From Candidatus Kuenenia stuttgartensis (GTDB taxonomy: Bacteria; Planctomycetota; Phycisphaerae; Sedimentisphaerales; CAMDDF01): 48,168 bases of DNA. The position numbers were made by a program, and so were the translations under genes. The notes beneath the pieces are model-generated. The model was not told the DNA's origin and searched no databases. It saw only the letters and a list, made by a program, of their open reading frames with translations. This document shows, in pieces, positions 28,112-48,168 of this stretch. Location: NCBI GenBank assembly GCA_945890885.1, contig CAMDDF010000003.1, forward strand, positions 1 through 48,168, in the 5' to 3' direction. Each line of letters starts with the position of its first letter. The first letter of the stretch is position 1.

Positions 28112-28546
28112 TTACTCAGGTCTTTGTCTGAATTCTATAACTTCACCATCCGGCCCGCAAAAATACGCAACCCAAACATCGGGCCTGAATTCAACAGGTT
28201 CGCCGAGAAATTTAACGCCTCTCTGTTTCAATTGTGCAATGTGTGTGTGAAAATCATTAACTTCAAAACCGATGTGAGTCAGCCCATGGTCGTATTGATT
28301 CATATTTCCGGCTTTATTTTGACCTTTGGGATTTGCATATTCAAATATTTCAAGCATTGCGTCGCCTAATTGCAGATGAGCAATTTTACAGACGGCTCCC
28401 TTAACGCCTATCACCCTTGCGATTCGATCATCTGTGATGTTAAGCTCCATAAGCACTTTCATCCCAAGAAAATCCCTGTAAAATTCCAGGGATTTTTCCA
28501 TACTGCTTACGCCCAAACCGACATGTCCCAAACTTTTAATCATCAT
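28112..28546 (-). CDS. VOC-superfamily (glyoxalase / methylmalonyl-CoA epimerase-like) protein
   Basis: IKSLGHVGLGVSSMEKSLEFYRDFLGMKV ... HIGFEVNDFHTHIAQLKQRGVKF ... GPDGEVIEF. Confidence 0.88.
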   Translation of the reverse strand: MMIKSLGHVGLGVSSMEKSLEFYRDFLGMKVLMELNITDDRIARVIGVKGAVCKIAHLQLGDAMLEIFEYANPKGQNKAGNMNQYDHGLTHIGFEVNDFHTHIAQLKQRGVKFLGEPVEFRPDVWVAYFCGPDGEVIEFRQRPE

Positions 28547-29935
28547 TTATTCCTTATATGCATCTGCCACAGCTTTTGCAACTTGCTTGTGAATCTCTCT
28601 GTCGAGAATATCAGGCAAAATCATTCCCTCAGGGGTAAGTTCCGCAAGTTTTCTCGCTGCTGCCAGCTGCATATCAATGGTTATATCTTTAGCTTTGACA
28701 TCAAGGGCACCCCTGAATAATCCGGGATACGCAAGAGCATTGTTAATTGTTCTGCCATCTACCGCAACTGCTGCACCTGCACTTAAAGCGTCATCAACAC
28801 TGATCTCGCCCTTGGGGTTGCTCAATGGAAATGCCAGCGAATTTTTAGCCATCACAGAAATCATTTTCTTTGACACCATATCAGGCTGAGCGACACCAAT
28901 AAAAATATCTCTGTCTTTAAAGCCTTCCAGTAAATCGCCTTTTATGTTGCTTTTATTTGTTATCTCCGCAAGTTTGTGCTTGTAGGGATTCATCCGTTCT
29001 GTTCTGCCCTTGTAAATTGCACCGACAGAATCATAAACGACAATATCCTTAAGACCAAATTCAAGGAGCATCATAGTTATCGCATGTCCGGCTGCGCCTG
29101 CACCAAGTATTATCGCGGTACAGTCTTGCGGTTTGCGGTTAGTCCTTTTTAATGCAGTAATCAATGCTGCCAATAAAACCGTTGCTGTGCCGTGCTGGTC
29201 ATCGTGAAAGACAGGAATATTGAGCCTTGCCTGTAATTTTTCTTCCACTTCAAAGCATGTAGGTGCAGAAATATCTTCAAGCTGAATGGCACCGAAACTT
29301 TGTGCGATTCTGCATACTGTTTCCACGATTACGTCAGGGTCTTTTGAATCTATAAGAATAGGGACAGCACTAATGCCTGTAAATTCGGCAAATATAGCAG
29401 CTTTGCCTTCCATAACCGGCAATGATGGTAGAATACCTATATTGCCCAAGCCCAAAACTGCGGTGCCATCGGTTACAATGGCTACTCTGTCGCACAGGCC
29501 TGTCAGTTCCCACGCAGACTCAGGTTCTTCAACTATTTTAGTGCAGATAGACGCTACGCCGGGGGTGTAAATCATTCTAAGGTCAGTAAGATTCGTTATC
29601 GGGACTCTGCTTATCATTTCAATAGCACCGCGACGGTGAATTTCAAGGACATTATCTTTGACGCTTAGAATTTCTATTCCTTCAATTGCCTTGAGCTGAT
29701 CAGTGACTTCATTAAGATGCTTTTTGCTGGTGCAGTAGACCTGGATATCTCTGATTTTGCTGTGGCTTTCGATTCCAACCGTAGTGATATCGCCGACATG
29801 TGCCTGCGCCTTTCCTATTGCCGTGGTAATTTTACCAAGCATTCCCGGCTTATCGGAAATTTTGCATTGCAAGGTATAAATTTCAGAAGCTCGATAACGC
29901 TCCTGCCAGCTTGTTTTATTGATGTCCATTTTCAT
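28547..29935 (-). CDS. NAD-dependent malic enzyme with N-terminal ACT domain
   Basis: ACT-like N-terminus; YTPGVASICTKI, DGTAVLGLGNIG, PVMEGKAAIF, FHDDQHGTA, ILGAGAAGHA. Confidence 0.93.
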   Translation of the reverse strand: MKMDINKTSWQERYRASEIYTLQCKISDKPGMLGKITTAIGKAQAHVGDITTVGIESHSKIRDIQVYCTSKKHLNEVTDQLKAIEGIEILSVKDNVLEIHRRGAIEMISRVPITNLTDLRMIYTPGVASICTKIVEEPESAWELTGLCDRVAIVTDGTAVLGLGNIGILPSLPVMEGKAAIFAEFTGISAVPILIDSKDPDVIVETVCRIAQSFGAIQLEDISAPTCFEVEEKLQARLNIPVFHDDQHGTATVLLAALITALKRTNRKPQDCTAIILGAGAAGHAITMMLLEFGLKDIVVYDSVGAIYKGRTERMNPYKHKLAEITNKSNIKGDLLEGFKDRDIFIGVAQPDMVSKKMISVMAKNSLAFPLSNPKGEISVDDALSAGAAVAVDGRTINNALAYPGLFRGALDVKAKDITIDMQLAAARKLAELTPEGMILPDILDREIHKQVAKAVADAYKE

Positions 29936-29946
29936 AAATTGTCCTT

Positions 29947-32121
29947 TTAAAGTTTTCTTTTTGCCGCTTTAAATATTGTTTCCTGTATATCATTTAACGA
30001 TGGACTGCAAACCGATTCAAGTTTCTTCGAAACAGGGTTCGGGATATCCAGTCCTGAAATTGTAGTAATCGGCCCGTCCAGATAATCAAAAAATTCAGCC
30101 TGACAATGTTCCGCAATCCTGGAACCAATGGAAAGACCTTTGGGGGCCTGCTCAACAATCACCAGCATTTTCGTCTTCTTAAAAGACTGGCCGATTGTTT
30201 CATAGTCAATATCATAAGGGCTAATCGTACGCAAATCAATCAATTCTACGCTGACACCCTGTTTTTTTAGATTTTCTGCCGCTTTTTGACATTCGTTTAT
30301 CATTTTGGAATAGCTAAGAACCGTTACGTCGCTGCCTTTATTGATAACCTTTGCTTTCCCAAAAGGAACGAAGTAATCCAGATTATCCTTTGGAACATCA
30401 CACTTGGTCGGATAAAGCTCGTGATGCTCAATCACAACAACAGGGTCTTTACTTTGCATGGCGGAATTAAAAAGTCCAATATAATCATAAGCATTGGATG
30501 GAGCAACAATCGTCCAGCCACTGAATAATGAAAAAATACCGACCGGATCCATTGAATGCTGACCGCCATAGCCGCAGCCAATTGCTATTCTCGTTCTGAG
30601 TACAACCGGCATATCGGTTGAGTTGCCATACATGTGACGCAATTTACCAATCTGATTAAAGAGCTGATCGGCAGCTACCAGAGCAAAGTCCGGAAACATA
30701 ATTTCAATAATAGGCTTCAAACCACTCATTGCTGCCCCGCCGCCTAAACCAACAAACCCGGATTCTGAAATAGGGGTATTCAATACCCTGTCCGGATATT
30801 TTGCGGGAAGTCCTTTGGTTGCGCCGTAGGGGCCTCCGCCAAAGTTAGCGATTTCTTCGCCCACAACAAATACACTATTATCTTTTTCCAGCCAGCGGCC
30901 TGTAACCGAAGAGATGGCTTCGACGTATGTCTTTTGCTCAACATCCGAAAAATCTTCCTTCTCGGTGAATTTGACACCATCAAATTCCTTGCCTGAACCT
31001 CGTATGCCTTCCTTAATCGTTGAAACATCCGGCCACAGTTTTTCCTGAACGCACAGTTTATTGTCATTCGTAACAGTACAAAATTTCAATGCAGTATGCA
31101 CCGCATCAATCGCTTTTTGTTTCAACTGCTCGATTTGAGAATCGGATAAGATTTTAAGTTCAACCAACTTTTGCGGAAACATCGCATAGGGGTCGAGACA
31201 TTGCCAGTTCGATTCTTCCTCTTTAACACGATACCCAAAGTTACTACCGGGAATCGGGCCAGCATGATGAAAGAAACGATAGCATTTGGCCTCAATCAAA
31301 GTAGCACCATTGCCTTCGCGAGCAGTCTGGGCAGCTTTCTGCAACCCCAAATGAACCGCAACAGGATCCATGCCGTCAACTATAATTCCTTTAATACCAT
31401 ATGCAATGGCTTTGACCACTAAATCAGGAGTGGCCGTCGAGTTCCTAATTGATGTTGCCACAGCATAGAGATTGTTCTCGATAAAATAAACCGCTGGAAG
31501 TTTCCATATACCTGCCAGATTCAATGCTTCATGGAAGGCTCCCTGATTAACTGCACCATCGCCAAGGAAAGATACTACAATATTATTTGTTTTATTATAT
31601 TTCTCTGCGAATGCCGAACCTGTTGCAAGAGGAACGCCGCCTGCCACAATCGCATTAGTACCAAGAACACCGATCTTTTCATTTCGGAGATGCATCGAGC
31701 CGCCGCGACCGCCGCAGCACCCAATTGAAAGCCCCATGATCTCGCCCATAAGATTGGTTATTTCAACCTGAAGAGGCTGAGAAATCGTATCCTTTAAAAT
31801 ATTAAATCCGTTTTGGCAATGAAAACCAACAGCCTTGGAGAGGTAGTGATGATGCGCCCTGTGAGTCGAAGATACTTTATCGGATTTTTCCAACACCGAC
31901 ATCGCCCCTGCCGCACAAGCCTCATGGCCGATACTGGTATGAACGGGGCCGTGTATACAGCCATCTGCCGATAGTTTCAATAATGTCTGTTCGAATTCTC
32001 TGATGAGAAACAGCTCAAAAGCAATATTGGCCAATTTATCCGGCGATATTTTTTTATAATCGCTGTCTTCTACTATTATCTTTGTCAAATCAAAGTTATT
32101 GTCTAATTTTAAAGTTTTCAT
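29947..32121 (-). CDS. Fused E1alpha-E1beta thiamine-dependent 2-oxoacid/acetoin-type dehydrogenase (no lipoyl domain)
   Basis: E1alpha: STHRAHHHYLSKA, GRGGSMHL, GDGAVNQGAFHEALNLA (ThDP motif); E1beta: EEIANFGGGPYGATKGL, ESGFVGLGGGAA, DLRTISPYD; 724 aa. Confidence 0.92.
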   Translation of the reverse strand: MKTLKLDNNFDLTKIIVEDSDYKKISPDKLANIAFELFLIREFEQTLLKLSADGCIHGPVHTSIGHEACAAGAMSVLEKSDKVSSTHRAHHHYLSKAVGFHCQNGFNILKDTISQPLQVEITNLMGEIMGLSIGCCGGRGGSMHLRNEKIGVLGTNAIVAGGVPLATGSAFAEKYNKTNNIVVSFLGDGAVNQGAFHEALNLAGIWKLPAVYFIENNLYAVATSIRNSTATPDLVVKAIAYGIKGIIVDGMDPVAVHLGLQKAAQTAREGNGATLIEAKCYRFFHHAGPIPGSNFGYRVKEEESNWQCLDPYAMFPQKLVELKILSDSQIEQLKQKAIDAVHTALKFCTVTNDNKLCVQEKLWPDVSTIKEGIRGSGKEFDGVKFTEKEDFSDVEQKTYVEAISSVTGRWLEKDNSVFVVGEEIANFGGGPYGATKGLPAKYPDRVLNTPISESGFVGLGGGAAMSGLKPIIEIMFPDFALVAADQLFNQIGKLRHMYGNSTDMPVVLRTRIAIGCGYGGQHSMDPVGIFSLFSGWTIVAPSNAYDYIGLFNSAMQSKDPVVVIEHHELYPTKCDVPKDNLDYFVPFGKAKVINKGSDVTVLSYSKMINECQKAAENLKKQGVSVELIDLRTISPYDIDYETIGQSFKKTKMLVIVEQAPKGLSIGSRIAEHCQAEFFDYLDGPITTISGLDIPNPVSKKLESVCSPSLNDIQETIFKAAKRKL

Positions 32122-32126
32122 ATTAC

Positions 32127-33572
32127 CTATCTATATTTAATATATGCCACTTTATGTTCAGTGAAGAACTCTACGCCGGTATGGCCAGCCTCTGGAATAC
32201 CACAGCCCGATAATTTAACGCCGCCAAAACTCAGTTGAGGTTCCTTAACTGCCGTCGGAATATTAACATGAGTAAGGCCTACGTCCGTTTTTTCGACAAA
32301 GGTCAATGCCTTTTGCAGATCATTGGTATAGATGGACGAAGAAAGGCCAAATTTTACATTATTAGCGATATCAACTGCATCATCGAAATCCTTCGCCTTT
32401 ATTACTGAAAGAACCGGGCCGAATATCTCTTCCTGAGCAATAAACATACGCGGTGTTACATTTGTGAAAACAGTAGGCTCAATGAAACATCCGTTTGCTA
32501 AATCTTTATCTTTTATCTGCTTGCCGCCAATTACAAGATTCGCACCTTCAGCTTTGCCCTTTTCGATACAATCAAGAACGTCTTCTAGCTGACTTTTCCC
32601 GCAAACCGGGCCCATCGTTGTCGCAGAATCGGTTCCTTTGCCTACCTTAATCTTTTTAACTCGGTCGAGTACCATTTCTATAAATCTGTCATATACCGGT
32701 TCTTCTACAACGGCTCTGCTAGTAGAGGTACACCATTGGCCAGCACAGGCAAATACTGCCAAAACCGCTGAATCTGCCGCTATTTCAAGGTCAGCATCAG
32801 CTAAAACAACCAGAGGATTTTTGCCGCCCATCTCAAGCTGAGTGCGTGTTAAATTGTCAGCAGCGGCTTTGTTGATACCCATACCAACTTCAGTTGAGCC
32901 GGTAAAGGTTATTGCCTTAATAGCAGGATTTTCAACAAGAGCCTGGCCAATTACAGCACCACTGCCTGTTAAAAAGTTCAATACTCCAGCGGGCAAGCCG
33001 GCATCATCAAAAAGTTTTACAAATGCAGCACCAACACCGGGAGTTAAGTTGGCAGGCTTTAATATACAGGTATTGCCTGTAATCAATGCAGGTGTAACCT
33101 TTCGGCAAGGAACATTAAAAGGAAAATTCCAAGGCGATATGACGGCTACTACGCCAAGCGGAACTCTGATACCGTAAGCCAGCACGCCATCCCTTTCGGA
33201 CGGCATGATCTCACCGCCCAAGCGAATCCCTTCGTTGATCTGATAGTCCATCTCTTTAATGGCGGATGCTATTTCGCCTCTGGATTCGTTTAAAGTCTTA
33301 CCATTTTCAGCGGTTATCACTGCCGCGATTTGTTCGATTCTTTGCTGCATCAACGAAAGGGCCTTGCGAAGATATTCTGCTCTCTGGTAAACCGTCAGTT
33401 TACGCCAGCTCTTAAAAGCCTCTTTCGCTGTCTCTATCGCATGCTGAACATCTGCAACCGTTGACTTAGGCCAAGAACCAGTAATCTGTGTCAAATCCGC
33501 TGGGGCATAATGCTTATATATTGCCTTATCGCTCGCATCAACCCATCTGCCGTTAATAAAATTCTTATTCAT
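32127..33572 (-). CDS. NAD(P)-dependent aldehyde dehydrogenase (succinate/2-oxoglutarate semialdehyde type)
   Basis: SPWNFPFN, FTGSTEVG, LEMGGKNPLVV, FACAGQWCTSTSRAVV, EEIFGPVLSV. Confidence 0.94.
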   Translation of the reverse strand: MNKNFINGRWVDASDKAIYKHYAPADLTQITGSWPKSTVADVQHAIETAKEAFKSWRKLTVYQRAEYLRKALSLMQQRIEQIAAVITAENGKTLNESRGEIASAIKEMDYQINEGIRLGGEIMPSERDGVLAYGIRVPLGVVAVISPWNFPFNVPCRKVTPALITGNTCILKPANLTPGVGAAFVKLFDDAGLPAGVLNFLTGSGAVIGQALVENPAIKAITFTGSTEVGMGINKAAADNLTRTQLEMGGKNPLVVLADADLEIAADSAVLAVFACAGQWCTSTSRAVVEEPVYDRFIEMVLDRVKKIKVGKGTDSATTMGPVCGKSQLEDVLDCIEKGKAEGANLVIGGKQIKDKDLANGCFIEPTVFTNVTPRMFIAQEEIFGPVLSVIKAKDFDDAVDIANNVKFGLSSSIYTNDLQKALTFVEKTDVGLTHVNIPTAVKEPQLSFGGVKLSGCGIPEAGHTGVEFFTEHKVAYIKYR

Positions 33573-34361: not shown

Positions 34362-34435
34362 AATTGAGCCCTCATACGAATGCAGGCCAGAAAATTATCT
34401 TGATATTTTAAATTTTGACGTTATTGTCAGATGAT

Positions 34436-35128
34436 ATGATGAATAGCACAATTAACAAACAGACCCTCAGCGAAATTGTCGTTTCAAAGATAAAAAAACA
34501 TATTATTGACAACGACTTAAAGGCCGGCGACCGCCTCCCAACCGAGCAAGAAATGGCGGATAGTTTTGGTGTGAGTAGATTAAGTGTTCGCGAGGCAACA
34601 ACAACACTTAGTTATTTGGGAATTATTGATTCTGCTCCGCGAAGAGGATTAACTGTTGGTAAATTTGATCTTGACAGATTAAAGGAATTTTTGGGATTTC
34701 ATTTTGCCCTCAATGATTATCCGAGGGAAAAATTGCTTTATACGCGAGTTGTAATTGAAGTAGGTATTCTGGGTTATAGCTCAAAGGCAATCATCGCAGA
34801 CAAGGGAGTGTATTATAAGCTTGATGAGATATGTAACGAAATAGATAAATATGATAGCCTTGATAGTTATATTCATTGGGATATTGAGTTTCATAGTATG
34901 CTGGTTAAGGTAGCTGGTATTGAACCTTTAGTAATGTTTAATGATCTGCTTCAGACTTTTTTCAGAAAATTTAGACTTGAGATATCCAGTATCGGAAAAT
35001 ATCGGGATAAGGGCCACAATGTTCACCGAGAAATACTGGAGTCTTTGCGTTGTGGCAATGTTGATCAGGCAGAAAATTTACTTCGAGAGCATTTGGGATG
35101 TTACAAAGAAAAAATTCAAAATAGTTAA
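34436..35128 (+). CDS. GntR-family regulator (FadR/FCD type), second tandem copy
   Basis: AGDRLPTEQEMADSFGVSRLSVREATTTLSYLGIIDSAPRRGLTV; FCD-like C-terminus. Confidence 0.9.
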   Translation: MMNSTINKQTLSEIVVSKIKKHIIDNDLKAGDRLPTEQEMADSFGVSRLSVREATTTLSYLGIIDSAPRRGLTVGKFDLDRLKEFLGFHFALNDYPREKLLYTRVVIEVGILGYSSKAIIADKGVYYKLDEICNEIDKYDSLDSYIHWDIEFHSMLVKVAGIEPLVMFNDLLQTFFRKFRLEISSIGKYRDKGHNVHREILESLRCGNVDQAENLLREHLGCYKEKIQNS

Positions 35129-36018: not shown

Positions 36019-36444
36019 ATGTCAAAAGGTAAAGTTGTAAAAGTAAGCAAAGTAATGCCGTTTTCACCATTACCAAACGGCGAATATATTTCAAGAATGC
36101 TGATTGATGTGTTTAACAGCGGTTCCGATAGATTGCAGGTTAATCACGGTGTATTGAAAGGCGGAGGCTCGTTTGCAGACGCAGTTCATGAGGCCCCAAA
36201 TGACGAGATGTACATTGTCCTAAGCGGCGCAGCAGTTCTTACACTGGATGGAGTTAAATATGATATCGAAAAAGGCAGTGTGGTATTTATTCCTGGTGGT
36301 ACATCGCATGGTTTAGTAAATAAAAGCAAGACCGAAGATTTTGAGCTTATAACAGTTTGGCCTGGTCAACCCACCCCGGGAGCCAATAAAGTATATGATA
36401 TGCGTAAAGAAGCATGGGGAACAACTTACAGAGAAGTAGAATAA
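36019..36444 (+). CDS. Cupin-domain protein
   Basis: DEMYIVLSGAAVLTLDGVKYDIEKGSVVFIPGGTSHGLVNKS. Confidence 0.85.
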   Translation: MSKGKVVKVSKVMPFSPLPNGEYISRMLIDVFNSGSDRLQVNHGVLKGGGSFADAVHEAPNDEMYIVLSGAAVLTLDGVKYDIEKGSVVFIPGGTSHGLVNKSKTEDFELITVWPGQPTPGANKVYDMRKEAWGTTYREVE

Positions 36445-36485
36445 CCATATAGAAATCAAAAAATGTGGATTTTTACGAGATAAAG

Positions 36486-37292
36486 ATGAGCAAAAATCTG
36501 TTTGATCTTACAGGAAAAGTAGCCATTGTAACCGGTGCAAGTCGTGGGCTGGGGCAATCTTTTGCTCGTGCTGTCGCTGTCGCCGGAGCAGATTTAGTTG
36601 TAACTGCAAGAGACCTCGAATCGCTTAAAGAATTTCAAAAGGAAATCGAGTTACTTGGCAGAAAGGTATTGCCGTTAGCTTTGGACGTGCGTGAGCATAA
36701 CAGCATAGAGAAAATGGTTGACGAAGCTTATAGACATTACGGTAAGATTGACATTCTTGTTAATAATGCCGGCTGCAATATTCGTAAGCCTGCGGTCGAT
36801 ATCACATGGGACGACTGGAATCTGGTGCTTGATACAAACCTGCGAGGTGCGTTTTTTGTTGCACAGGCAGTAGCAAAAAAAATGATACCCAAACATTACG
36901 GCCGGATTATCAATATTGGTTCAGCAACCTGCGTCTTTGGGTATGCCGGAATAGCCCCGTACTGCGCCAGCCGCGGTGGAATCAAACAACTTACAATGAG
37001 CCTTGCCGATGATTGGGGTACTTATGGCATCACGGTAAATTGTCTGGCACCTGGCTGGTTCAAGACTGACCAGACAAAGGCGCTTTGGGAAAATAAAGAA
37101 TGGATGGACTATATCACAAGCCGCCTGCCTCTTAGAAGGCTTGGTGAAGCCGCAGACCTAGATGGTACAGTTGTTTTTCTTGCTTCCGATGCCAGTGGGT
37201 ATATTACCGGCCAAACGTTACTGGTAGATGGAGGATTTACTACCGGAGCAACGAAAGCAAATATTAAGAAGGCGATCGCTAATGTTGAATAA
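36486..37292 (+). CDS. SDR family oxidoreductase (2), gluconate-5-dehydrogenase-like
   Basis: VAIVTGASRGLGQSFA, NNAGCNIRKPA, YCASRGG, ITGQTLLVDGGF. Confidence 0.9.
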   Translation: MSKNLFDLTGKVAIVTGASRGLGQSFARAVAVAGADLVVTARDLESLKEFQKEIELLGRKVLPLALDVREHNSIEKMVDEAYRHYGKIDILVNNAGCNIRKPAVDITWDDWNLVLDTNLRGAFFVAQAVAKKMIPKHYGRIINIGSATCVFGYAGIAPYCASRGGIKQLTMSLADDWGTYGITVNCLAPGWFKTDQTKALWENKEWMDYITSRLPLRRLGEAADLDGTVVFLASDASGYITGQTLLVDGGFTTGATKANIKKAIANVE

Positions 37293-38280
37293 ATACAAAG
37301 TTGTACTAGTTGATTATGATGATGATCTGTTCAGTCCTTTGGGATGGGAGGGAGATATACTTTCCAGTATAGGCGCTGCCTTTCATGTTGGACAATATCG
37401 CACTACTGAAGATGTACTTCGAGTAACAGAAGATGCCGATGTAGTAATGATTCAGTCGGTACGGCCCCTTCTTAACGGCGAGGTGATCCGAAAGATGAAG
37501 CAATGTCGCTGCATTATCAGGCTTGGCATCGGTTACGACAGCGTCGATGTTAAGGCCGCAACTAACTGTAATATAATCGTCTGCAATATACCTCTGTATT
37601 GCGTCGATGATGTTGCCGAGCATGCCTTGGCGCTTTTGCTGGATGGCGCACGACACATCAGTTTGCAGGACCGAATGATTCGTGCCAGTCAGTGGGACAG
37701 ACGCAAAGCGCGTCCGTCGCGGAGATTAAGAAGTTCAACCTTGGGTATAGTTTCTATGGGAAGGATTGCACAACGTCTTGCACAATGTGCAAAAGGTCTT
37801 TTCGCTAATGTATTGGGATTTGACCCTTATGTAAATTCGGCGACAATGGCTAAACTGGGCGTTGAGAAGGTTGAGTTGAACGAATTGCTTAGCCGCAGTG
37901 ATTTTATTTCTGTTCACACGCCATTGACAGACTCGACGCATCATTTGCTAGGCCGACATGAGTTTGAAATAATTAAACAAGGTGCAGTTCTGGTCAATAC
38001 CAGTCGCGGCGGTGTGATCGATACTCAAGCTTTGGTCAAGGCGATGCAAAGCCAGAAGCTTTGGGCCGCTGGACTTGACGTTATGGAACAAGAGCCGCTC
38101 CCACAGGATTCGCCCCTTAGGCAGTTGCCCAATGTTTCCTTTACGCCACATGTTGGAGCATGCACAGATGAAAGCGTAGCTGATCTATATCGGGCAGCAT
38201 GTGAAATTGCCTGTGATGTTTTGTGCGGCAAAACCCCGGCTTCCATAGCGAATCCGGAAGTAATAAAGAAAAAGAAATAA
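37282..38280 (+). CDS. D-isomer-specific 2-hydroxyacid dehydrogenase (CtBP-like)
   Basis: ATG 37282 preferred; IRLGIGYDSVDV, TLGIVSMGRIAQRLA, VNTSRGGVIDTQAL, LDVMEQEPLP, FTPHVG. Confidence 0.92.
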   Translation: MLNKYKVVLVDYDDDLFSPLGWEGDILSSIGAAFHVGQYRTTEDVLRVTEDADVVMIQSVRPLLNGEVIRKMKQCRCIIRLGIGYDSVDVKAATNCNIIVCNIPLYCVDDVAEHALALLLDGARHISLQDRMIRASQWDRRKARPSRRLRSSTLGIVSMGRIAQRLAQCAKGLFANVLGFDPYVNSATMAKLGVEKVELNELLSRSDFISVHTPLTDSTHHLLGRHEFEIIKQGAVLVNTSRGGVIDTQALVKAMQSQKLWAAGLDVMEQEPLPQDSPLRQLPNVSFTPHVGACTDESVADLYRAACEIACDVLCGKTPASIANPEVIKKKK

Positions 38281-38301: not shown

Positions 38302-38976
38302 ATGGCAAGATTCAAACGATTACAAGTTTTGAACACGATGATCGAAACTGGCATGATCCCTGTGTTCTATCATCCTAATATCGAGACAGCAAAGAATATT
38401 GTTCGGGCATGTACCGAAGGCGGAGCTAAGGCAATAGAATTTACCAACCGCGGCGATCAGGCTCATCTGGTATTCACAGAATTGGTCAAGCATTTTGCGG
38501 TTGAAATGCCCCATGTTATTTTGGGCGTAGGTTCAATTGTTGATGCTGCTACGGCTGGTCTGTATATCTCGTGCGGCGCTAATTTTGTGGTTGGTCCTGT
38601 TTTGAACAGCGATGTAGCTAAAATATGCAATCGGCGAAAAATTTCATACAGCCCTGGTTGCGGCAGTGCTTCTGAGATATCAGCGGCCGAAGAACTTGGC
38701 GTTGAAATATGCAAAATATTTCCAGGTTCTCAAGTTGGCGGGCCTGATTTTGTCAAGTCGGTGCTTGGCCCTTGCCCATGGGCAAGCATAATGCCGACAG
38801 GCGGAGTTGACGCCACCCGCGAAAGCATAGAAGCGTGGTTTAAATCTGGCGTTGTATGTGTTGGAATGGGCTCAAACCTGATAACCAAAGAATCGGTAGA
38901 TAAGGCTGATTTCAAGGTCATCTCACAAAAGGTCGTCCAGGTGCTGGAGTGGATCAGGCAAGTTCGCGTAAAATGA
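38302..38976 (+). CDS. KDPG/KHG aldolase (Eda-like)
   Basis: GMIPVFYHPNIETAKNIVRACTEGGAKAIEFTNRG, ILGVGSI, SYSPGCGSASEI, CKIFPGSQVGGPDFVKS, MPTGGV. Confidence 0.9.
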   Translation: MARFKRLQVLNTMIETGMIPVFYHPNIETAKNIVRACTEGGAKAIEFTNRGDQAHLVFTELVKHFAVEMPHVILGVGSIVDAATAGLYISCGANFVVGPVLNSDVAKICNRRKISYSPGCGSASEISAAEELGVEICKIFPGSQVGGPDFVKSVLGPCPWASIMPTGGVDATRESIEAWFKSGVVCVGMGSNLITKESVDKADFKVISQKVVQVLEWIRQVRVK

Positions 38977-39032: not shown

Positions 39033-40157
39033 ATGAATCATATTAAAAAGTTCCAAGATTGTGTTTACGATGCTGTTTCTTTAGGCGAAGTGATGATGCG
39101 AATAGATCCTAACGATGTTCCCACGGCGCGCGCTCGCACGGCTGCTATCTGGCATGGCGGCGGAGAGACAAATGTTGCCGAAGGATTAAGCTATTGTTTT
39201 CAGTTAAGGACAGCCGTTGTAACTGCTTTGGTTGATGACAGCATCGGACGGAATATCGAAAACCAACTTCGTGAAGCCGGCGTGGACACCAAGCACATAA
39301 TCTGGTTTAACACACATGGAAAAGGAAAATTTTCCACGGATCAAAAAGGTACGCTGCATAACGGAATCAATTTTACATGGGCAGGTAAGGGAATATTGCC
39401 TTCGATAACGGAGTATTATCGAGCACACACGCCTATAAGAGAGTTGAAACCAGGTGATTTTGATTGGGATGGGTTGTTTTCACAAGGGGTCAGATGGTTC
39501 CATACCGGCGGTATTTATGCTCTCCTTTCGCCTACCTCAGGTGAATTGGCAATAGAGTCAATGAAAGCCGCAGGAAAATTCGGAACATTTCGATCATTTG
39601 ACCTTAATTACCGCAGTAAGGTCGAGCCTGATAAAGAAAAGGCTCGCAGGCAAAACAGGAATATAGTCGAATTTACCGATTTTCTTGTTGGAAACCAAAG
39701 TGACTTTGAAGATGCTCTTGGCGAAGAATCACGCAAGGTAAGCAAGGATGCGCCTTTTGAACAGTGGCTGGAAGCGTATTCTGAATTGCTCAGGCGTGTC
39801 GCTGGTAAGTATCCCAACCTGAAACTGATTGGCACTCAGCTTCGCGCGGCTTTGAGTGCGGATCGAATAAACTGGGGAGCGATACTCTATGATGTTGCCA
39901 AAGATAAAATTTGCCTCGCAACAGTACGTCAGAACGTGGAAATCAAAGACAGAACAGGCGGCGGCGATTCGTTCTTATCGGGAGTTGCGGCAGCTCTTTT
40001 AAGCGGTAAGGAAATCGAAGATGCTGTACAATGGGGTGCCGCCCACGGGATATGCGTACAGGAAACTCCTGGAGATACAAGTATGGTAACACAAACTGAT
40101 GTTGAAAAAGAAATCAAAAGAAGTCTTAGTAACTCTGGTGTAAGTGCTCTAAGATAA
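39033..40157 (+). CDS. PfkB-family sugar kinase, 2-keto-3-deoxygluconate kinase-like
   Basis: SLGEVMMRIDP, GGGETNVAEGLS, FDLNYRSKV, DRTGGGDSFLSG. Confidence 0.88.
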   Translation: MNHIKKFQDCVYDAVSLGEVMMRIDPNDVPTARARTAAIWHGGGETNVAEGLSYCFQLRTAVVTALVDDSIGRNIENQLREAGVDTKHIIWFNTHGKGKFSTDQKGTLHNGINFTWAGKGILPSITEYYRAHTPIRELKPGDFDWDGLFSQGVRWFHTGGIYALLSPTSGELAIESMKAAGKFGTFRSFDLNYRSKVEPDKEKARRQNRNIVEFTDFLVGNQSDFEDALGEESRKVSKDAPFEQWLEAYSELLRRVAGKYPNLKLIGTQLRAALSADRINWGAILYDVAKDKICLATVRQNVEIKDRTGGGDSFLSGVAAALLSGKEIEDAVQWGAAHGICVQETPGDTSMVTQTDVEKEIKRSLSNSGVSALR

Positions 40158-40238: not shown

Positions 40239-42635
40239 ATGGATGTTATGAATTTCAAAAATGTATCGGCTGGACACGATAGCCTTGGCAAACAAGAATT
40301 GTTGAATCTTTATGAGAAAATGGTGCTTATAAGGAAATTTGAACAGGCAGTACAGGATAATTATAGAAAAGGTGAAGTGCCTGGATTTATTCACCTTTGC
40401 ATTGGACAAGAAGCAATTGCTGCCGGCGTATGTTCCAATCTGACAAAAGATGACTGGATCACGAGTACGCACCGCGGCCATGGACACGCGTTGGCAAAAG
40501 GAGTAAATGAAAAAATATTACTTGCTGAACTTTATGGCAAAGCTACCGGCTGCTGTGGCGGTCGCGGCGGATCAATGCATCTTTATTCATATATTAATGG
40601 CTTATTTGGAACAAATGGCATCGTTGGAGGGGGCAATCCTTTAGCTGTTGGTTTAGGAATAAGTGCCCAGGTTAAAGATACAGATGGTGTGGCGGTTTCT
40701 TTCTTTGGCGATGGAGCTGTTAATCATGGAAGTTTCCATGAATCAATTAATTATGCCGCAGTCCGAAAAGCACCTGTTATTTTTGTCTGCGAGAATAATC
40801 TATATGCGACTTGCGTGTCAATTTCAACTACAACTTTGAATAGCAGGATTTCGAGTAAGGCCGCAGCATATGGAATACCCGGAATAACAGTAGACGGCAA
40901 TAATATATTGGCTGTTCATGAGGTTGCAAGAGAAGCTGTTGAACGTGCAAGGAGAGGTGAAGGCCCTACGTTGATTGAAGCTCTTACATATAGAACAGTT
41001 GGGCATCATGAAGGCGATCCGGTTGTAGGCACTTATCGAAATAAAGAAGAATTGGATAAATGGAAGGCAAAGTGCCCGATCCTGAATTTCGAAAATTATC
41101 TTAAAGATAGCGGTATTGCTTCAGTGGAAGAAATAGATGCCATCTCTAAAAAAATTGATAAAAGAATTGCTGATGCGGTAGATTTTGCTCGTTCTTCTGA
41201 AGAACCAAAACCAAATACTGTATTTGAAAACTGTTGGATGGAACCCGTAAATCCCCCTGAGGCTCTACGGCCAGCAAGCAATTCCGGTGAAACTGTTACC
41301 CAAAGCTGGCTCGATGCCGTTAGAGACGGAATAGCAGAGGAGATGCGTAAGGATAAAAATATAATATACGTAGGTGAAGGAATCGGAGAAAGAGGCGGTA
41401 CCTATGGCCATACTAAAAATTTATGGCAGGAATTCGGTACTAAGCGCGTATTTGACGCTCCAATTTGTGAGCTGGCATTTACTGGAGCAGCAGCTTCATC
41501 TTCAGCGGCAGGCTGTCGTACTATAGCGGACCTTATGTTTTCTGAATTTATCTTTGATGCAGCTAGCCAGATAATTGACCAAGCCAGTAAATTACGCTAC
41601 ATGAGCAATGGGCAAATCAGCGTACCTATGATAATTCGTGCTGGCTTTGGCCAGATCAAGCAGGCCGGCCCACATCATAGCGGTACCTATCATTCAATAT
41701 GGGCGCATTGCCCCGGTCTTATAGTTGCGATACCTTCAAATCCGGCAGATGCTAAAGGCTTAATGAAAACCGCTTTAAGAGCAGGTGATCCTGTTATTTT
41801 CCTTGAAGCTAAATCACTCTTTTCTTCAAAGGGCCCTGTTCCTGTTGATGAACATTTTGTACCTTTTGGAAAGGCAAAAGTTTTAGAAGAAGGCAACGAT
41901 ATAACAATAGTAACTTGCGGGTTGCCGGTACATCGTTGTCTTGAGGCGGCAGGCAAGCTGAAAGAACGCGGCGTTTCGTGTGAAGTTATTGACCTGCGAA
42001 CAATAGTTCCTCTTGATGTCGAAACAATTTTGAATAGTGTTGCCAAGACAGGTCATTTGCTGGTAGTCGACGAGGCTTATCCTAGTTTTTCACTTGCCTC
42101 GGAAATAGCGGCTATTGTTACAGAAAATGCTTTCGATAAACTCAAAGCTCCATTCGGGCGGCTTAACAACTATTCTGTTCCACAACCTTTTAGCCGTTTA
42201 TTAGATATCGAAGTAGGCATTACAACTGAAAAAGTTATGGATGCGGTAACAGCGGTAATGAATGGTTCTCCCATAAAACCAAAATGTACCGTAGTTACTG
42301 GCCTTAAATCTGAGAATAATATCTATGAAGGCAAGTCGATGGCTGGCATCAAAGAAGCATCCGAAACTCATGAGGAGTCTCAAAAAATGAGTAGCGACAA
42401 TTTTATTGAAATCACAATGCCCAACCAAGGGCTTACGATAACAGAAGTGAAAATTCTCAAGTGGTACAAAAGTGTTGGCGATACCGTTAAAAAGGGTGAG
42501 GCATTATTAGATTTTGAAACTGACAAGGCCACAGTTGAATTAGAGGCACCGGCAAATGGCAAGTTAGCCAAAATTGTAGCTCAAGAGGAAGTAACCGTTG
42601 CCATAGGTGAAGTTGTTGGTTTTCTTACGAAATAA
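40239..42635 (+). CDS. Fused E1alpha-E1beta-lipoyl thiamine-dependent dehydrogenase
   Basis: 798 aa; E1alpha STHRGHGHALAKG, GRGGSMHLY, GDGAVNHGSFHES; E1beta VGEGIGERGGTYGHTKNL, DLRTIVPLD; C-terminal lipoyl domain ITMPNQG...DFETDKATVELEAPANGKL. Confidence 0.93.
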   Translation: MDVMNFKNVSAGHDSLGKQELLNLYEKMVLIRKFEQAVQDNYRKGEVPGFIHLCIGQEAIAAGVCSNLTKDDWITSTHRGHGHALAKGVNEKILLAELYGKATGCCGGRGGSMHLYSYINGLFGTNGIVGGGNPLAVGLGISAQVKDTDGVAVSFFGDGAVNHGSFHESINYAAVRKAPVIFVCENNLYATCVSISTTTLNSRISSKAAAYGIPGITVDGNNILAVHEVAREAVERARRGEGPTLIEALTYRTVGHHEGDPVVGTYRNKEELDKWKAKCPILNFENYLKDSGIASVEEIDAISKKIDKRIADAVDFARSSEEPKPNTVFENCWMEPVNPPEALRPASNSGETVTQSWLDAVRDGIAEEMRKDKNIIYVGEGIGERGGTYGHTKNLWQEFGTKRVFDAPICELAFTGAAASSSAAGCRTIADLMFSEFIFDAASQIIDQASKLRYMSNGQISVPMIIRAGFGQIKQAGPHHSGTYHSIWAHCPGLIVAIPSNPADAKGLMKTALRAGDPVIFLEAKSLFSSKGPVPVDEHFVPFGKAKVLEEGNDITIVTCGLPVHRCLEAAGKLKERGVSCEVIDLRTIVPLDVETILNSVAKTGHLLVVDEAYPSFSLASEIAAIVTENAFDKLKAPFGRLNNYSVPQPFSRLLDIEVGITTEKVMDAVTAVMNGSPIKPKCTVVTGLKSENNIYEGKSMAGIKEASETHEESQKMSSDNFIEITMPNQGLTITEVKILKWYKSVGDTVKKGEALLDFETDKATVELEAPANGKLAKIVAQEEVTVAIGEVVGFLTK

Positions 42636-42670
42636 TATTTTTAGTGTTTTCAAAAAGAAAAGGAAAGACA

Positions 42671-43141
42671 ATGGAATTAAATAAAGAACTGGCTCAAAAG
42701 TTAAATCTGCCAGCAATGAGCCAAATTGGAATTGTAGTAAAAAGTATAGATCAAACGGTAAAATACTATGAAAACGTCCTTGGACTTGGGCCGTTTGTTG
42801 AGCCAGAGATCAATTACAGCGACAAGCAGTACCATGGCAAACCAGCAGATTTTGCAATTAGAATGTCTTTTTGTTCGCTGGGGCCTATCGAATTAGAACT
42901 TATCGAACCGATTACTGAGCCTACAATTTATCATGATTTTCTAAAGGAAAAAGGCGAAGGTATCCATCATATCGGTTTTGATGTAAAAGACATGGATGAG
43001 AGAATTAAGGTTTGCGCAGAAATGGGCATTGATGTATTGCAAATGGGACGTACGCCAGCAGGAGGATTTGCATATCTCAATACTGAAAAAATTGGCGGCG
43101 TAATATTCGAGTTAATACAACGGAAATGCCGAAGAGCATAG
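42671..43141 (+). CDS. VOC-superfamily (methylmalonyl-CoA epimerase-like) protein
   Basis: QIGIVVKSIDQTVKYYENVLGLGPF, GEGIHHIGFDVKDMDERI, IGGVIFELIQ; ATG 42671 preferred over track start. Confidence 0.88.
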   Translation: MELNKELAQKLNLPAMSQIGIVVKSIDQTVKYYENVLGLGPFVEPEINYSDKQYHGKPADFAIRMSFCSLGPIELELIEPITEPTIYHDFLKEKGEGIHHIGFDVKDMDERIKVCAEMGIDVLQMGRTPAGGFAYLNTEKIGGVIFELIQRKCRRA

Positions 43142-43180: not shown

Positions 43181-43357
43181 ATGACGGCTAAATATGATTT
43201 CAAAGATAACGGCCATAATATAGTTGTCGATGGTGGCTGGACATGTGTGGTTTTAACAGGGATTTTTGAAATTATGATACAAAAATTTCCTTACAGACGA
43301 ATTAAAAGAACCATGAATAGAGAATTGGTAAATAGCGTAGAGAGGCGAACATGGTAG
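43181..43357 (+). pseudogene. Decayed SDR C-terminus plus LarA N-terminus (duplicate of the 45.7 kb junction)
   Basis: Removing 2 nt (tgtGTggt) gives NGHNIVVDGGWTCGFNRDF* identical to the SDR ending at 45788, followed by MIQKFPYRRI (cf. MIHHFPYKEF of LarA). Confidence 0.8.
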
Positions 43358-44274
43358 GAAATATTGTCATAGCAGGGAGTTGTCTTATTGCGCTGTCAAT
43401 GAAGGCGGAACGGTTTCCACAAGTAGGCGAAACGGTTGTTGCCAATATGTTTTTTGAAGAAACAGGCGGCAAAGGAACTAACCAAGCGATAGCAGCATCA
43501 AAACTTGGAAGCCGAGTCTCATTGATTGGATGTGTTGGAAATGACAAGTTCGGGAAAGCAATACTACAGGATCTAAATAAATTTACTGTAGACACTCAGG
43601 CAGTACGTATAGATGATTCCTGCCAGTCAGGCACCGCCTTTATTCTCATAAATGATCACGGTGATAATATGATAAGCATATTGCCTGGAGCGAATTTCAA
43701 ACTTACCAATGATGATTTTGAAAATAATCTTGATGTTATAAGAAAAAGCGATATTATTGGTTTTCAGCTTGAAAATAATATTGATTTTGTTGAGTACGGA
43801 ATTAAAAGGGCAAATGAACTTGGTATTAAAACGCTTTTGGATCCTGCACCAGCGCGGCATTTAAATGATTCTGTTTATGCCCATCTTGATTATATAAAAC
43901 CAAATGAAAGCGAAGCTTCATTATTGACGAAAATTAGTGTTACAGATATAGATAGTGCATTCAAAGCTGCTGAATGGTTTCTGGATAAAGGTGTTAAAAA
44001 CTCTATCATTACTCTTGGTCAAAAGGGAGTTGTAATATTAAACCATAAAATAAAGCACTATGTAGTGCCTCCGAAGACCAAGGCTGCAGATCCAACGGGT
44101 GCTGGTGATATATTCAGCGGCGCGTTAATGCACTGCCTGACTAATAAGATGGATTTGACAGCTGCTTGTGAATTCGCAGTTTATGCTGCGACATTTTCAG
44201 TTCGTCAAGTTGGTGTTATACAATCAATGCCTACAGAACAAGAAGTGATTGATTTTAGAAATTCTCAAACATAA
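43351..44274 (+). CDS. rbsK: Ribokinase-like PfkB sugar kinase
   Basis: GGKGTNQAIAASKLGSRVSLIGCVGNDKFG, ILPGAN, KPNESEA, DPTGAGDIFSGAL. Confidence 0.88.
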   Translation: MVGNIVIAGSCLIALSMKAERFPQVGETVVANMFFEETGGKGTNQAIAASKLGSRVSLIGCVGNDKFGKAILQDLNKFTVDTQAVRIDDSCQSGTAFILINDHGDNMISILPGANFKLTNDDFENNLDVIRKSDIIGFQLENNIDFVEYGIKRANELGIKTLLDPAPARHLNDSVYAHLDYIKPNESEASLLTKISVTDIDSAFKAAEWFLDKGVKNSIITLGQKGVVILNHKIKHYVVPPKTKAADPTGAGDIFSGALMHCLTNKMDLTAACEFAVYAATFSVRQVGVIQSMPTEQEVIDFRNSQT

Positions 44275-44286
44275 GGAAAAATATTT

Positions 44287-44973
44287 ATGTGGACAAAAGA
44301 AAAAGTTTCCGCAACTATAGACCATGCTGTCCTGAAGCCATCATTTACAGATAATGATGTAATAAAAGGCTGTGAATTAGGCAGGAAATACAAAGTTGCA
44401 AGCGTCTGCGTAAGGCCGAGCGATGTTGCTTTAGCTAAAAAACAACTTCATGGCAGTGGAGTAAAGACATCCGTCGTTGTAGGATTTCCTCATGGAGCTA
44501 ATCGCAGTGAGACAAAGGCCTTGGAAGCGAAACTTGCTATTGAAGATGGAGCCGAAGAGCTGGATATGGTTTTGAACATCGGCAAGTTACTCTCAGGTGA
44601 TTACGAGTATGTTAAAAACGACATAAAAGCAGTGGTAAAGGAGGCCAAGAAATTCGGCGTTCTGGTAAAAGTTATATTTGAAATATATTATCTTACTAAT
44701 CAGCAGATCCAAGATGCCACTAAGTTGTCGATTGAAGCAGGCGCTGATTTCGTAAAGACTTCAACTGGATTTGCAGAAGGTTCTGCAACAATTGAAGCTG
44801 TGGATATTATGATAAAAACTGCAGCTGGCAGAATTAAGGTTAAACCATCAGGCGGAATTAGAAACTTTGAAGACGCTGTCAGATTCCTTGAGCTGGGAGC
44901 CGACCGGCTTGGTGTGGGATCAACCGAGAAAGTTCTCGGAGATTCCGTTGCAAACGACAATGAAAACTATTAA
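44287..44973 (+). CDS. deoC: Deoxyribose-phosphate aldolase
   Basis: IDHAVLKPSFTD, VVVGFPHG, EELDMVLNIG, DFVKTSTGF, IKVKPSGGIR, RLGVGST. Confidence 0.95.
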   Translation: MWTKEKVSATIDHAVLKPSFTDNDVIKGCELGRKYKVASVCVRPSDVALAKKQLHGSGVKTSVVVGFPHGANRSETKALEAKLAIEDGAEELDMVLNIGKLLSGDYEYVKNDIKAVVKEAKKFGVLVKVIFEIYYLTNQQIQDATKLSIEAGADFVKTSTGFAEGSATIEAVDIMIKTAAGRIKVKPSGGIRNFEDAVRFLELGADRLGVGSTEKVLGDSVANDNENY

Positions 44974-44984
44974 TGAGGATAGCT

Positions 44985-45788
44985 ATGTCTGATAATATAA
45001 AATTAAAGTTTGATACCAAAGTGGCGATTGTAACTGGCTCTGCTGGTGGAATCGGTAAAGCAATCGCTGAAAAACTCTACCAAAACGGTGCTAATGTAAT
45101 TATTTCAGACGTTCAGATTGAACAAGGTCAGGAAACAGCCAGAAGCTTAGGTAAACGAGCAATTTTTATACCTTGCGATATCTCTGATTCATCGCAGGTC
45201 AATTCGTTAATCGATGCGGTAGTTCAACAGTTTGGGCGATTGGATATTATGGTTAATAATGCCGGCATAAATTCAGGAAGGCCGGAAGATAGAGTTACGG
45301 TTGACAAATATCCCGACGCAACCTGGCACAAGATGATAAATGTTGACCTTAACGGAACATTTTATTGCTGTAAGGCGGCAGCCGGAGTTATGGTAAAACA
45401 GAAATTTGGTTCTATCATAAATATATCATCAATCGCTGGCGTGGTGGCACTCAGACTTCAAATAGGATTTGTGGCAGCTAAGGCGGCAATCATCAAGATG
45501 ACAGAGGCAATGGCTTGCGAGCTGGCCCCGATGGGTATCAGGGTTAATGCAGTGTCGCCAGGATCGACTTTGACAGAAGGAACACGAAAACTTTTTTATA
45601 GCAAAGAAGGCAGCTTCAGCGACATGGCAGCACGTGTTGTTTCTTTTATTCCTCAGGGAAGGCCTGGCGAAGCGGATGAAATAGCAGATGCGGTTTTATT
45701 TTTGGCATCAGATTCGGCTTCGTATATAAATGGCCACAACATCGTCGTTGATGGCGGCTGGACATGCGGATTTAACAGGGATTTCTAA
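44985..45788 (+). CDS. SDR family oxidoreductase (3)
   Basis: VAIVTGSAGGIGKAIA, NNAGINSGRPED, GHNIVVDGGWTCGF; ATG 44985 preferred. Confidence 0.9.
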   Translation: MSDNIKLKFDTKVAIVTGSAGGIGKAIAEKLYQNGANVIISDVQIEQGQETARSLGKRAIFIPCDISDSSQVNSLIDAVVQQFGRLDIMVNNAGINSGRPEDRVTVDKYPDATWHKMINVDLNGTFYCCKAAAGVMVKQKFGSIINISSIAGVVALRLQIGFVAAKAAIIKMTEAMACELAPMGIRVNAVSPGSTLTEGTRKLFYSKEGSFSDMAARVVSFIPQGRPGEADEIADAVLFLASDSASYINGHNIVVDGGWTCGFNRDF

Positions 45789-47044
45789 TGATACACCATT
45801 TTCCATATAAAGAATTTGACCCGATTGAAATACCTGAAAAAAATATATCAGGATTTTATACTCTGTCTGATAATCAAAAATTCGTAGATGAATCAGAATT
45901 GATAAAAAATGCTCTGGAGAATCCTATAGGGAGCAGCAGGCTTTGTAAAATGGTTAAGCCTGATATGAAAATAGTAGTAGTGGTTGATGACAATAGTCGA
46001 AATACCAGAACAGATTTAATGCTACCGATGGTTCTGGCAGAGGTTGAAAAGGCTGGAGTTAAACGGGAGAATCTTACGGTATTTATTGCACTCGGCACAC
46101 ACCGCAAGATGACAGAAAATGAGATAGCAGAAAAATATACCGCGGCCATTGCAGATAATTACAGGTTTGTAAATCCCGACTGGAAAAATTCATTAGAATA
46201 CGGTTTGGCAGGATACTCTTCTTCTAATTTTCCAATTAAAATACACAAGGAAATACTAAATTCTGATTTTGTAATTGGCGTAGGTCAGACGATTCCGCAT
46301 ATGATAGCCGGTTTTGGCGGCGGATGTAAAATAATCAATCCAGGTTGTGCGGATGGTGAGACTATTGGGTATATGCATTGGCTTTGCAGTGAAGCTGAAG
46401 ATGGAAAACTTTTTGCGGTAAGAGATAATCCGGTTCGTCAGGTAATTGACGAAGTGGGCATAAAAGCCGGATTAAAGTTTATTATTAATGAGGTTCCGGG
46501 CGGCAGCGGCAAGATTGGCGGAGTTTTTGCTGGAAATCCGATTGAGGCACATCGGCAGGCGTGCGAATTTGCAAAAAAAACATGCCAGGTGAAACTTAAA
46601 GAAAAAACAGATATTGTGATTGCTGATTCATATCCAGCAGATATGGATTTTTGGCAGGCATTGAAAGGCCTCAATGCGGCTTATGGTGCCGTGAAAGACG
46701 GCGGAACGGTAATTTTGGTATCAACCTGCCCGGAAGGCACAAGCTCGCAACATTCAACATTAACAGATATCGGATATATTGCCGTAGAAAAAATCAAACT
46801 AATGCTTGAGGCAGGTAAACTTGACAAGGCCGTCGCTGCTAACTTATTTCTCGGAAGAAAACTTATAGATAAAGCTGATACGATCCTGGTTACAAAAGGA
46901 ATATCCAAAGGTGATACTTTAAGTATGGGCTTTGGATGGGCCGAAAATCCTGAATCGGCATTGAAAGAGGCTATGAAAAAACATGGCGAGGATGCGAAAA
47001 TAAATATACTTTACAAGGCATCTAAAATGGTTTGTGTTTTATGA
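45788..47044 (+). CDS. larA: LarA-family nickel-pincer-nucleotide-dependent racemase/epimerase
   Basis: VVVVDDNSRNTRTDLMLP, ALGTHRKMTENE, GQTIPHMIAGFGGGCKIINPG (cofactor Lys), GYMHWL. Confidence 0.88.
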   Translation: MIHHFPYKEFDPIEIPEKNISGFYTLSDNQKFVDESELIKNALENPIGSSRLCKMVKPDMKIVVVVDDNSRNTRTDLMLPMVLAEVEKAGVKRENLTVFIALGTHRKMTENEIAEKYTAAIADNYRFVNPDWKNSLEYGLAGYSSSNFPIKIHKEILNSDFVIGVGQTIPHMIAGFGGGCKIINPGCADGETIGYMHWLCSEAEDGKLFAVRDNPVRQVIDEVGIKAGLKFIINEVPGGSGKIGGVFAGNPIEAHRQACEFAKKTCQVKLKEKTDIVIADSYPADMDFWQALKGLNAAYGAVKDGGTVILVSTCPEGTSSQHSTLTDIGYIAVEKIKLMLEAGKLDKAVAANLFLGRKLIDKADTILVTKGISKGDTLSMGFGWAENPESALKEAMKKHGEDAKINILYKASKMVCVL

Positions 47045-47826: not shown

Positions 47827-48168
47827 ATGTCTTATCCATTTGAATATGTAGTAAGTCAACTAAAAAAACACAATGTTCGTTTTGATGTTTTTTGTCCTGA
47901 TAAAAATTCTGCTGCCGTAGTTTTGTCGGATTATAACCGCATTCTCGGTGCATGGCCCGATATTCAGATGGAATGTCCTCTATGGATAAACGAAAAATTT
48001 CTTGAAAACCCGAACGATAAATCTGTTGTATGGGCGAATCCTGGGGGACATCGTGTATGGGTGGCACCAGAAAAAGAATTTTTTATTTCCGACTTAAACA
48101 AGCCTTTTGAAACATATAAAGTTCCCAAGGAAATGGACCCTGGCACGTATGATTACAAAATGGAAAGC
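47827..48168 (+). CDS. 5' part of a gene truncated by the window end; possibly a DUF6786-like protein
   Basis: Open frame for 114 codons to the edge: MSYPFEYVVSQLKKHNVRFDVF...NPGGHRVWVAPEKEFF. Confidence 0.6.
   Translation, partial: MSYPFEYVVSQLKKHNVRFDVFCPDKNSAAVVLSDYNRILGAWPDIQMECPLWINEKFLENPNDKSVVWANPGGHRVWVAPEKEFFISDLNKPFETYKVPKEMDPGTYDYKMES

Follow-up and report, generated by a model that had tools for sequence, protein, structure and literature searches.

In the classical three-component 2-oxoacid dehydrogenase complexes, the lipoyl arm resides on the E2 component, an arrangement that is the basis of substrate channelling, and E2 and E3 are encoded in the same locus. The described E1 enzymes of this type include AcoAB and PdhAB, which work with a lipoyl-bearing E2 and an E3. 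A different layout is found in the alphaproteobacterial pyruvate dehydrogenase E1-beta (PRK11892/NF008854), where an E1 subunit carries a lipoyl domain; this domain is N-terminal, lying in the extra region of about 120 residues at the start of the PRK11892 profile, the alpha subunit is separate, and the E2 proteins that partner with it keep a lipoyl domain of their own. The P64K protein of Neisseria meningitidis is a lipoyl-E3 fusion, which again places the carrier on a non-E2 component (according to a reference listed in PMC6270654). The view of a first-pass annotation of the DNA discussed here, that known complexes place the lipoyl domain only on E2, is thus too narrow.

The window (the whole stretch of 48,168 nucleotides that was analysed) encodes a protein that, as this annotation had proposed, joins both E1 halves and a C-terminal lipoyl domain in one chain, with the following features:

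40239..42635, + strand: E1alpha-E1beta-lipoyl single-chain dehydrogenase, 798 aa, translated without a stop
40314..41213, + strand: E1_dh (E1-alpha), residues 26-325, PF00676 with 282.4 bits, aligned to human PDHA1
40707..40799, + strand: thiamine-diphosphate motif GDG...NN, residues 157-187, invariant in a nine-sequence alignment
41301..41822, + strand: Transket_pyr (E1-beta, N-terminal), residues 355-528, PF02779 with 114.2 bits
41868..42236, + strand: Transketolase_C (E1-beta, C-terminal), residues 544-666, PF02780 with 125 bits
42294..42392, + strand: flexible tether, residues 686-718, AlphaFold2 pLDDT below 50
42408..42617, + strand: lipoyl domain, residues 724-793, PF00364 Biotin_lipoyl with 59.3 bits against a cut-off of 22.1
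42525-42527, + strand: lipoyl lysine K763 (motif DFETDKATVE), the same residue in all nine sequences of the alignment

The domain search that had been proposed at first pass found E1_dh, Transket_pyr, Transketolase_C and Biotin_lipoyl in this order, all four above their Pfam gathering cut-offs, the first three being the complete set of a 2-oxoacid/acetoin dehydrogenase E1. Residues GDG (157-159) and NN (186-187) of the thiamine motif, as well as K763 and the E-T-x-K motif around it, are invariant in the nine sequences, and alignments that include the human chains indicate that the active-site His and Glu are retained; under the human numbering that we assume, His263 and phospho-Ser264 of the alpha chain correspond to H256 and H257 of the fusion, and Glu59 and His128 of E1-beta to Glu411 and His480. 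In an AlphaFold2 model the E1 core is folded (mean pLDDT 88, pTM 0.81), the tether at 686-718 is disordered, and the lipoyl domain forms a separate, beta-rich unit (pLDDT about 72-94). When this model is compared with the PDB by Foldseek, the top matches come from E1: chains of the branched-chain 2-oxo acid dehydrogenase of Thermus and of human pyruvate dehydrogenase. The fusion scores below the NCBIfam cut-offs for pyruvate dehydrogenase E1 (TIGR03182, 360.8 versus 393.85 bits; TIGR03181, 263.1 versus 411.35; NF008854, 369 versus 454 bits); these models cover alpha or beta alone, which in principle would not keep a fused protein from passing. Its phospho-loop motif, GHHEGDP, resembles GHFEGD, the form found in E1-E2-E3 operons of Firmicutes, more closely than GHSMSDP, that of pyruvate dehydrogenases; this motif resemblance can serve as a lead toward an acetoin-type enzyme.

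The fusion therefore shares domains, thiamine motif and active-site residues with AcoAB and PdhAB, but differs from them in having alpha and beta in one chain and the lipoyl domain at the C-terminus of E1, in falling below the pyruvate dehydrogenase cut-offs, and in that its adjacent E2, when present, has no lipoyl domain. In comparison with PRK11892, the lipoyl domain is C-terminal rather than N-terminal and the alpha subunit is fused rather than separate; the match to this profile spans only positions 123-462, and the extra N-terminal region is unmatched. P64K carries its lipoyl domain on E3, whereas the fusion carries it on E1, and neither of the two traits of the classical complex, a lipoyl domain on E2 and a locus shared with E2 and E3, is seen in the window. 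The single-chain E1alpha-E1beta-lipoyl architecture was not found described in the literature searched, and to our knowledge no description exists, which agrees with the earlier suggestion of an undescribed architecture. It is real, conserved and uncommon, and lies outside the textbook layout, although all of its domains are known and there are precedents for a lipoyl domain on other subunits.

An architecture search, also proposed at first pass, identified the same domain order at 14 distinct loci (the window, G019, G050, G121, G209, G423, G673, L056, L057, L058, L059, L060, L061 and L062), which belong to Planctomycetota, one Verrucomicrobia MAG and alphaproteobacterial MAGs. Six of these loci were covered by Pfam; G050 has a broken frame, G121 is cut at its 5' end, and genomes duplicated between collections were counted once (L057 and G247 have identical rows, L058 and G632 are both 15,014-base contigs). 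The fusion is rare: a class-level sample of 397 genomes has about 5 with it, and an overlapping phylum-level sample of 392 has 4-5. In a tree of E1 alpha and beta built with a quick method, the lipoyl-fused sequences (12 rows, 11 distinct loci) form one clade with an SH-aLRT support of 100, and the E1-borne lipoyl domains cluster together (support 93/85), apart from the E2 lipoyl domains of the sister clade. Because the E1 parts form one clade and the lipoyl domains group together, the fusion probably arose once. In the sister group (support 93), E1, mostly fused, is followed by a lipoyl-E2. Members of this clade (L066, L071, L081, L133 and, by gene order, G498 and G752) have a fused E1 that is 43-44% identical to the fusion and resemble the fusion loci in having an SDR, and sometimes an FAHD or D-2-hydroxyacid dehydrogenase, nearby, but their E1 ends at about 670 aa and their lipoyl domain lies on E2, differs in type and has an insertion of two residues.

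The genes that surround the fusion in the window are the following:

34415..35128, + strand: GntR/FadR-type regulator, with homologues of 45-48% identity at the G019, G209 and G423 loci
36019..36444, + strand: cupin protein
36465..37292, + strand: SDR oxidoreductase (gluconate 5-dehydrogenase/KduD-like); SDR genes recur at the loci of relatives
37228..38280, + strand: D-2-hydroxyacid dehydrogenase, with homologues near E1ab-lipoyl genes in several relatives
38302..38976, + strand: KHG/KDPG aldolase (PRK07114, above the curated cut-off)
39033..40157, + strand: PfkB-family sugar kinase (2-dehydro-3-deoxygluconokinase-like)
42644..43141, + strand: VOC-superfamily protein (Glyoxalase_4; sub-threshold to methylmalonyl-CoA epimerase), 8 nt past the E1 stop

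The VOC gene is probably co-transcribed with the fusion. Across fusion loci, the recurring neighbours comprise SDR oxidoreductases, D-2-hydroxyacid dehydrogenases, FAH-family hydrolases, Ldh_2 dehydrogenases, homologues of the KDPG aldolase and of the sugar kinase, a metallo-beta-lactamase-fold protein and a FadR-type regulator, in neighbour tables that rest on a mechanical choice of open reading frames and in which unannotated neighbours may be misread. These recurring genes fit the catabolism of sugar acids, and we infer that the fusion would act on a compound formed there, with an intermediate of the acyl or acyloin kind. Further downstream in the window (43351-47044), the cluster is followed by genes for a ribokinase, deoC, an SDR and a nickel-dependent racemase of the LarA family, the latter below all curated subfamily cut-offs.

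An E2 gene lies directly downstream of the fusion in four of the 14 loci. In L058 and L236 the two genes overlap at the E1 stop, by 8 and 4 nt respectively; the E2 start is placed 22 nt past this stop in L137 and 4 nt past it in L213. Each of the four proteins contains E3_binding and 2-oxoacid_dh domains, and Biotin_lipoyl is absent by Pfam from all four (the L058 E2 is cut off by the contig end, and that of L137 comes from a damaged contig). Since these E2 proteins have no lipoyl domain of their own, the arm on E1 is likely the only one at these loci, and in these four relatives E1 would supply it to the armless E2 next door. The presence of an armless E2 directly downstream in four relatives also indicates that, as far as gene content can tell, the fusion belongs to a rearranged 2-oxoacid dehydrogenase complex and is not an enzyme that lacks a class of partner.

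The reading preferred here, and considered reasonably probable, is that the fusion is an E1 and carrier module of the acetoin/pyruvate dehydrogenase type, and that it provides the arm for an E2 that is either armless or borrowed. The alpha/beta core, a decarboxylase or acyloin-cleaving E1, would employ thiamine chemistry to generate an acyl (or hydroxyalkyl) group, which would reductively acylate the lipoyl domain of the same chain, held on a tether of about 40 flexible residues; the arm would then visit the catalytic site of an E2, yielding acyl-CoA, and be reoxidised by E3. Lipoylation of K763 and acyl transfer to E2 in trans are predicted steps; the lysine is conserved, and the genome encodes LipA and LipB, adjacent to each other on contig C48. 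Counted against this model are the lack of a local E2 in nine of the 14 loci and the trees, in which the armless E2s show no common descent with E1. An arm on E1 whose partner E2 is armless or off-locus makes it possible to ask directly if the arm needs a tether to the E2 core, and if an E2 core can work with an E1 that has an arm itself.

The nine loci with no E2 beside the fusion include the window, and come from draft assemblies in which absence is not proof; in the remaining locus, L057, the contig ends 102 bases past the fusion gene. The genome of the window is itself a fragmented assembly of 152 contigs, and a domain search of these contigs found no E2 or E3 on C3, the contig of the window, in agreement with the first reading of this DNA; as C3 ends exactly at 48168, the E2 or E3 gene just beyond that position, which had been named as a possible refutation, falls away. 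All E2 and E3 matches of the genome lie on other contigs: E2 domains on C31/C46 (a single pyruvate dehydrogenase E2 that a contig break divides in two, accompanied by pyruvate dehydrogenase genes), C45 (adjoining a fused E1), C83 and C51, and one clear E3 on C35. The E2 proteins of C31, C45 and C83 have a lipoyl domain, and that of C51 has none. In this genome, which like those of several relatives shows no dedicated E2, the arm would most likely visit a resident E2 (the pyruvate dehydrogenase E2 of C31/C46, or C51) and the E3 on C35, and borrowing of a genome-wide E2/E3, one of two options given earlier, appears the likeliest route. The other option, an unidentified acceptor, does not stand for the relatives in which an armless E2 lies directly downstream and would take that role.

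The lipoyl-less E2 of C51 was considered as a dedicated partner and rejected, because it is found order-wide without the fusion and because no such protein was found in family f5, to which the fusion carriers G019 and G050 belong. Proteins of the C51 type (lipoyl-less E2 catalytic-domain proteins of about 230-270 aa) and of the C83 type (lipoyl-E2) are spread over the order, occurring in most of its genomes, those without the fusion included. In the window genome, both the C51 (L020:5144-6160) and C83 (L021:8186-9235) proteins have HxxxNG instead of HxxxDG at the E2 active site.

The absence of an adjacent E2 at nine of the 14 loci also suits a mode of action independent of E2, in which the acyl group on the fusion's own arm would be hydrolysed off or passed to a non-CoA acceptor, perhaps via a neighbour such as the VOC protein. 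The E2 inventories point the same way: G019 and G209 (92% complete) have one E2 each, and G102 and G103 have two each, which adjoin a pyruvate-dehydrogenase-type E1-beta and a 955-958 aa open reading frame that is SucA-like by size and position, and which are, to judge by these neighbours, only of the pyruvate and oxoglutarate types. The free lipoyl proteins of L067, L084, L101 and L103 (see below), for which about 10 kb of surrounding DNA yielded no E2, are likewise in its favour, and such a mechanism would explain both the fusion genomes without a spare E2 and the lipoyl carriers without a nearby E2 in other E1 groups. It is nevertheless possible rather than probable, and we regard it as doubtful: four relatives retain a downstream E2 with an E3-binding domain, no genome is without an ordinary E2 that the fusion might share, and no chemistry is known for release without E2.

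It is also unlikely that the fusion works with a complete, lipoyl-bearing E2, its extra domain docking or adding carrier capacity. The N-terminal lipoyl domain of the alphaproteobacterial E1-beta (PRK11892) is thought to act in this manner, and all window-genome E2s except that of C51 do carry an arm, but the lack of a lipoyl domain in four of four adjacent E2s argues that the E1 arm is likely the sole one there. That the domain is vestigial or not lipoylated, and serves structure alone, is quite improbable; the window's lipoyl domain does have the longest terminal branch (1.14) among the lipoyl domains carried on E1, but K763 and E-T-x-K are invariant across several phyla, and LipA and LipB are present. 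Finally, an assembly error or frameshift joining a separate lipoyl open reading frame, raised at first pass and conceivable in so fragmented a genome, is rejected because the same in-frame architecture recurs at 14 distinct loci, in independent assemblies from several phyla.

With regard to the origin of a module that lends its arm to E2, a slid gene boundary, by which the lipoyl domain of the sister clade's E2 would have become the tail of E1, is unsupported: in E2 trees the armless E2s are placed elsewhere, none of them joining the E2s of the E1 sister clade, and the E1-borne lipoyl type differs from that borne by the sister clade's E2, though an AU test (p 0.176) does not reject it. Three of the armless E2s group together (100/97), and the fourth, from L236, pairs with the E2 of another system; the AU test does not reject keeping the armless E2s together (p-AU 0.176 and 0.207).

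Other E1 arrangements were also encountered. The window contains a second fused E1-alpha/beta, missed at first pass, at 29947-32121 on the - strand (724 aa, without a lipoyl domain), which is possibly another unusual E1. It is part of a segment (28112-33572, - strand) in which an aldehyde dehydrogenase and an ACT-malic enzyme flank it and a VOC gene follows; its homologues, with no lipoyl domain found beside them, form one tree group and adjoin the aldehyde dehydrogenase (73-82% identity) in G067, G043 and G001, and the malic enzyme (75%) in G001. Elsewhere, free lipoyl proteins of 80 aa are encoded directly past E1-alpha and E1-beta genes (L067:12017-12259, L084:12031-12273, L101:11999-12241 and L103:7404-7646), in Chloroflexi and Rhodobacteraceae MAGs where no E2 was found in about 10 kb of flanking DNA. 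Because free lipoyl proteins of about 80 aa occur in separate parts of the E1 tree (L067/L084; L101/L103/L104/L117; L078/L089), the arm seems to have parted from E2 on several occasions. The actinobacterial loci L078:6307-7128 and L089:901-1653 present a third arrangement of the same parts, with a fused E1, a free lipoyl protein of 84-85 aa and a separate, lipoyl-less E2. VOC-superfamily genes recur beside E1 genes of different groups, at 42644-43141 and 28112-28546 in the window, and at L128:11011-11544 and L091:11953-12414.
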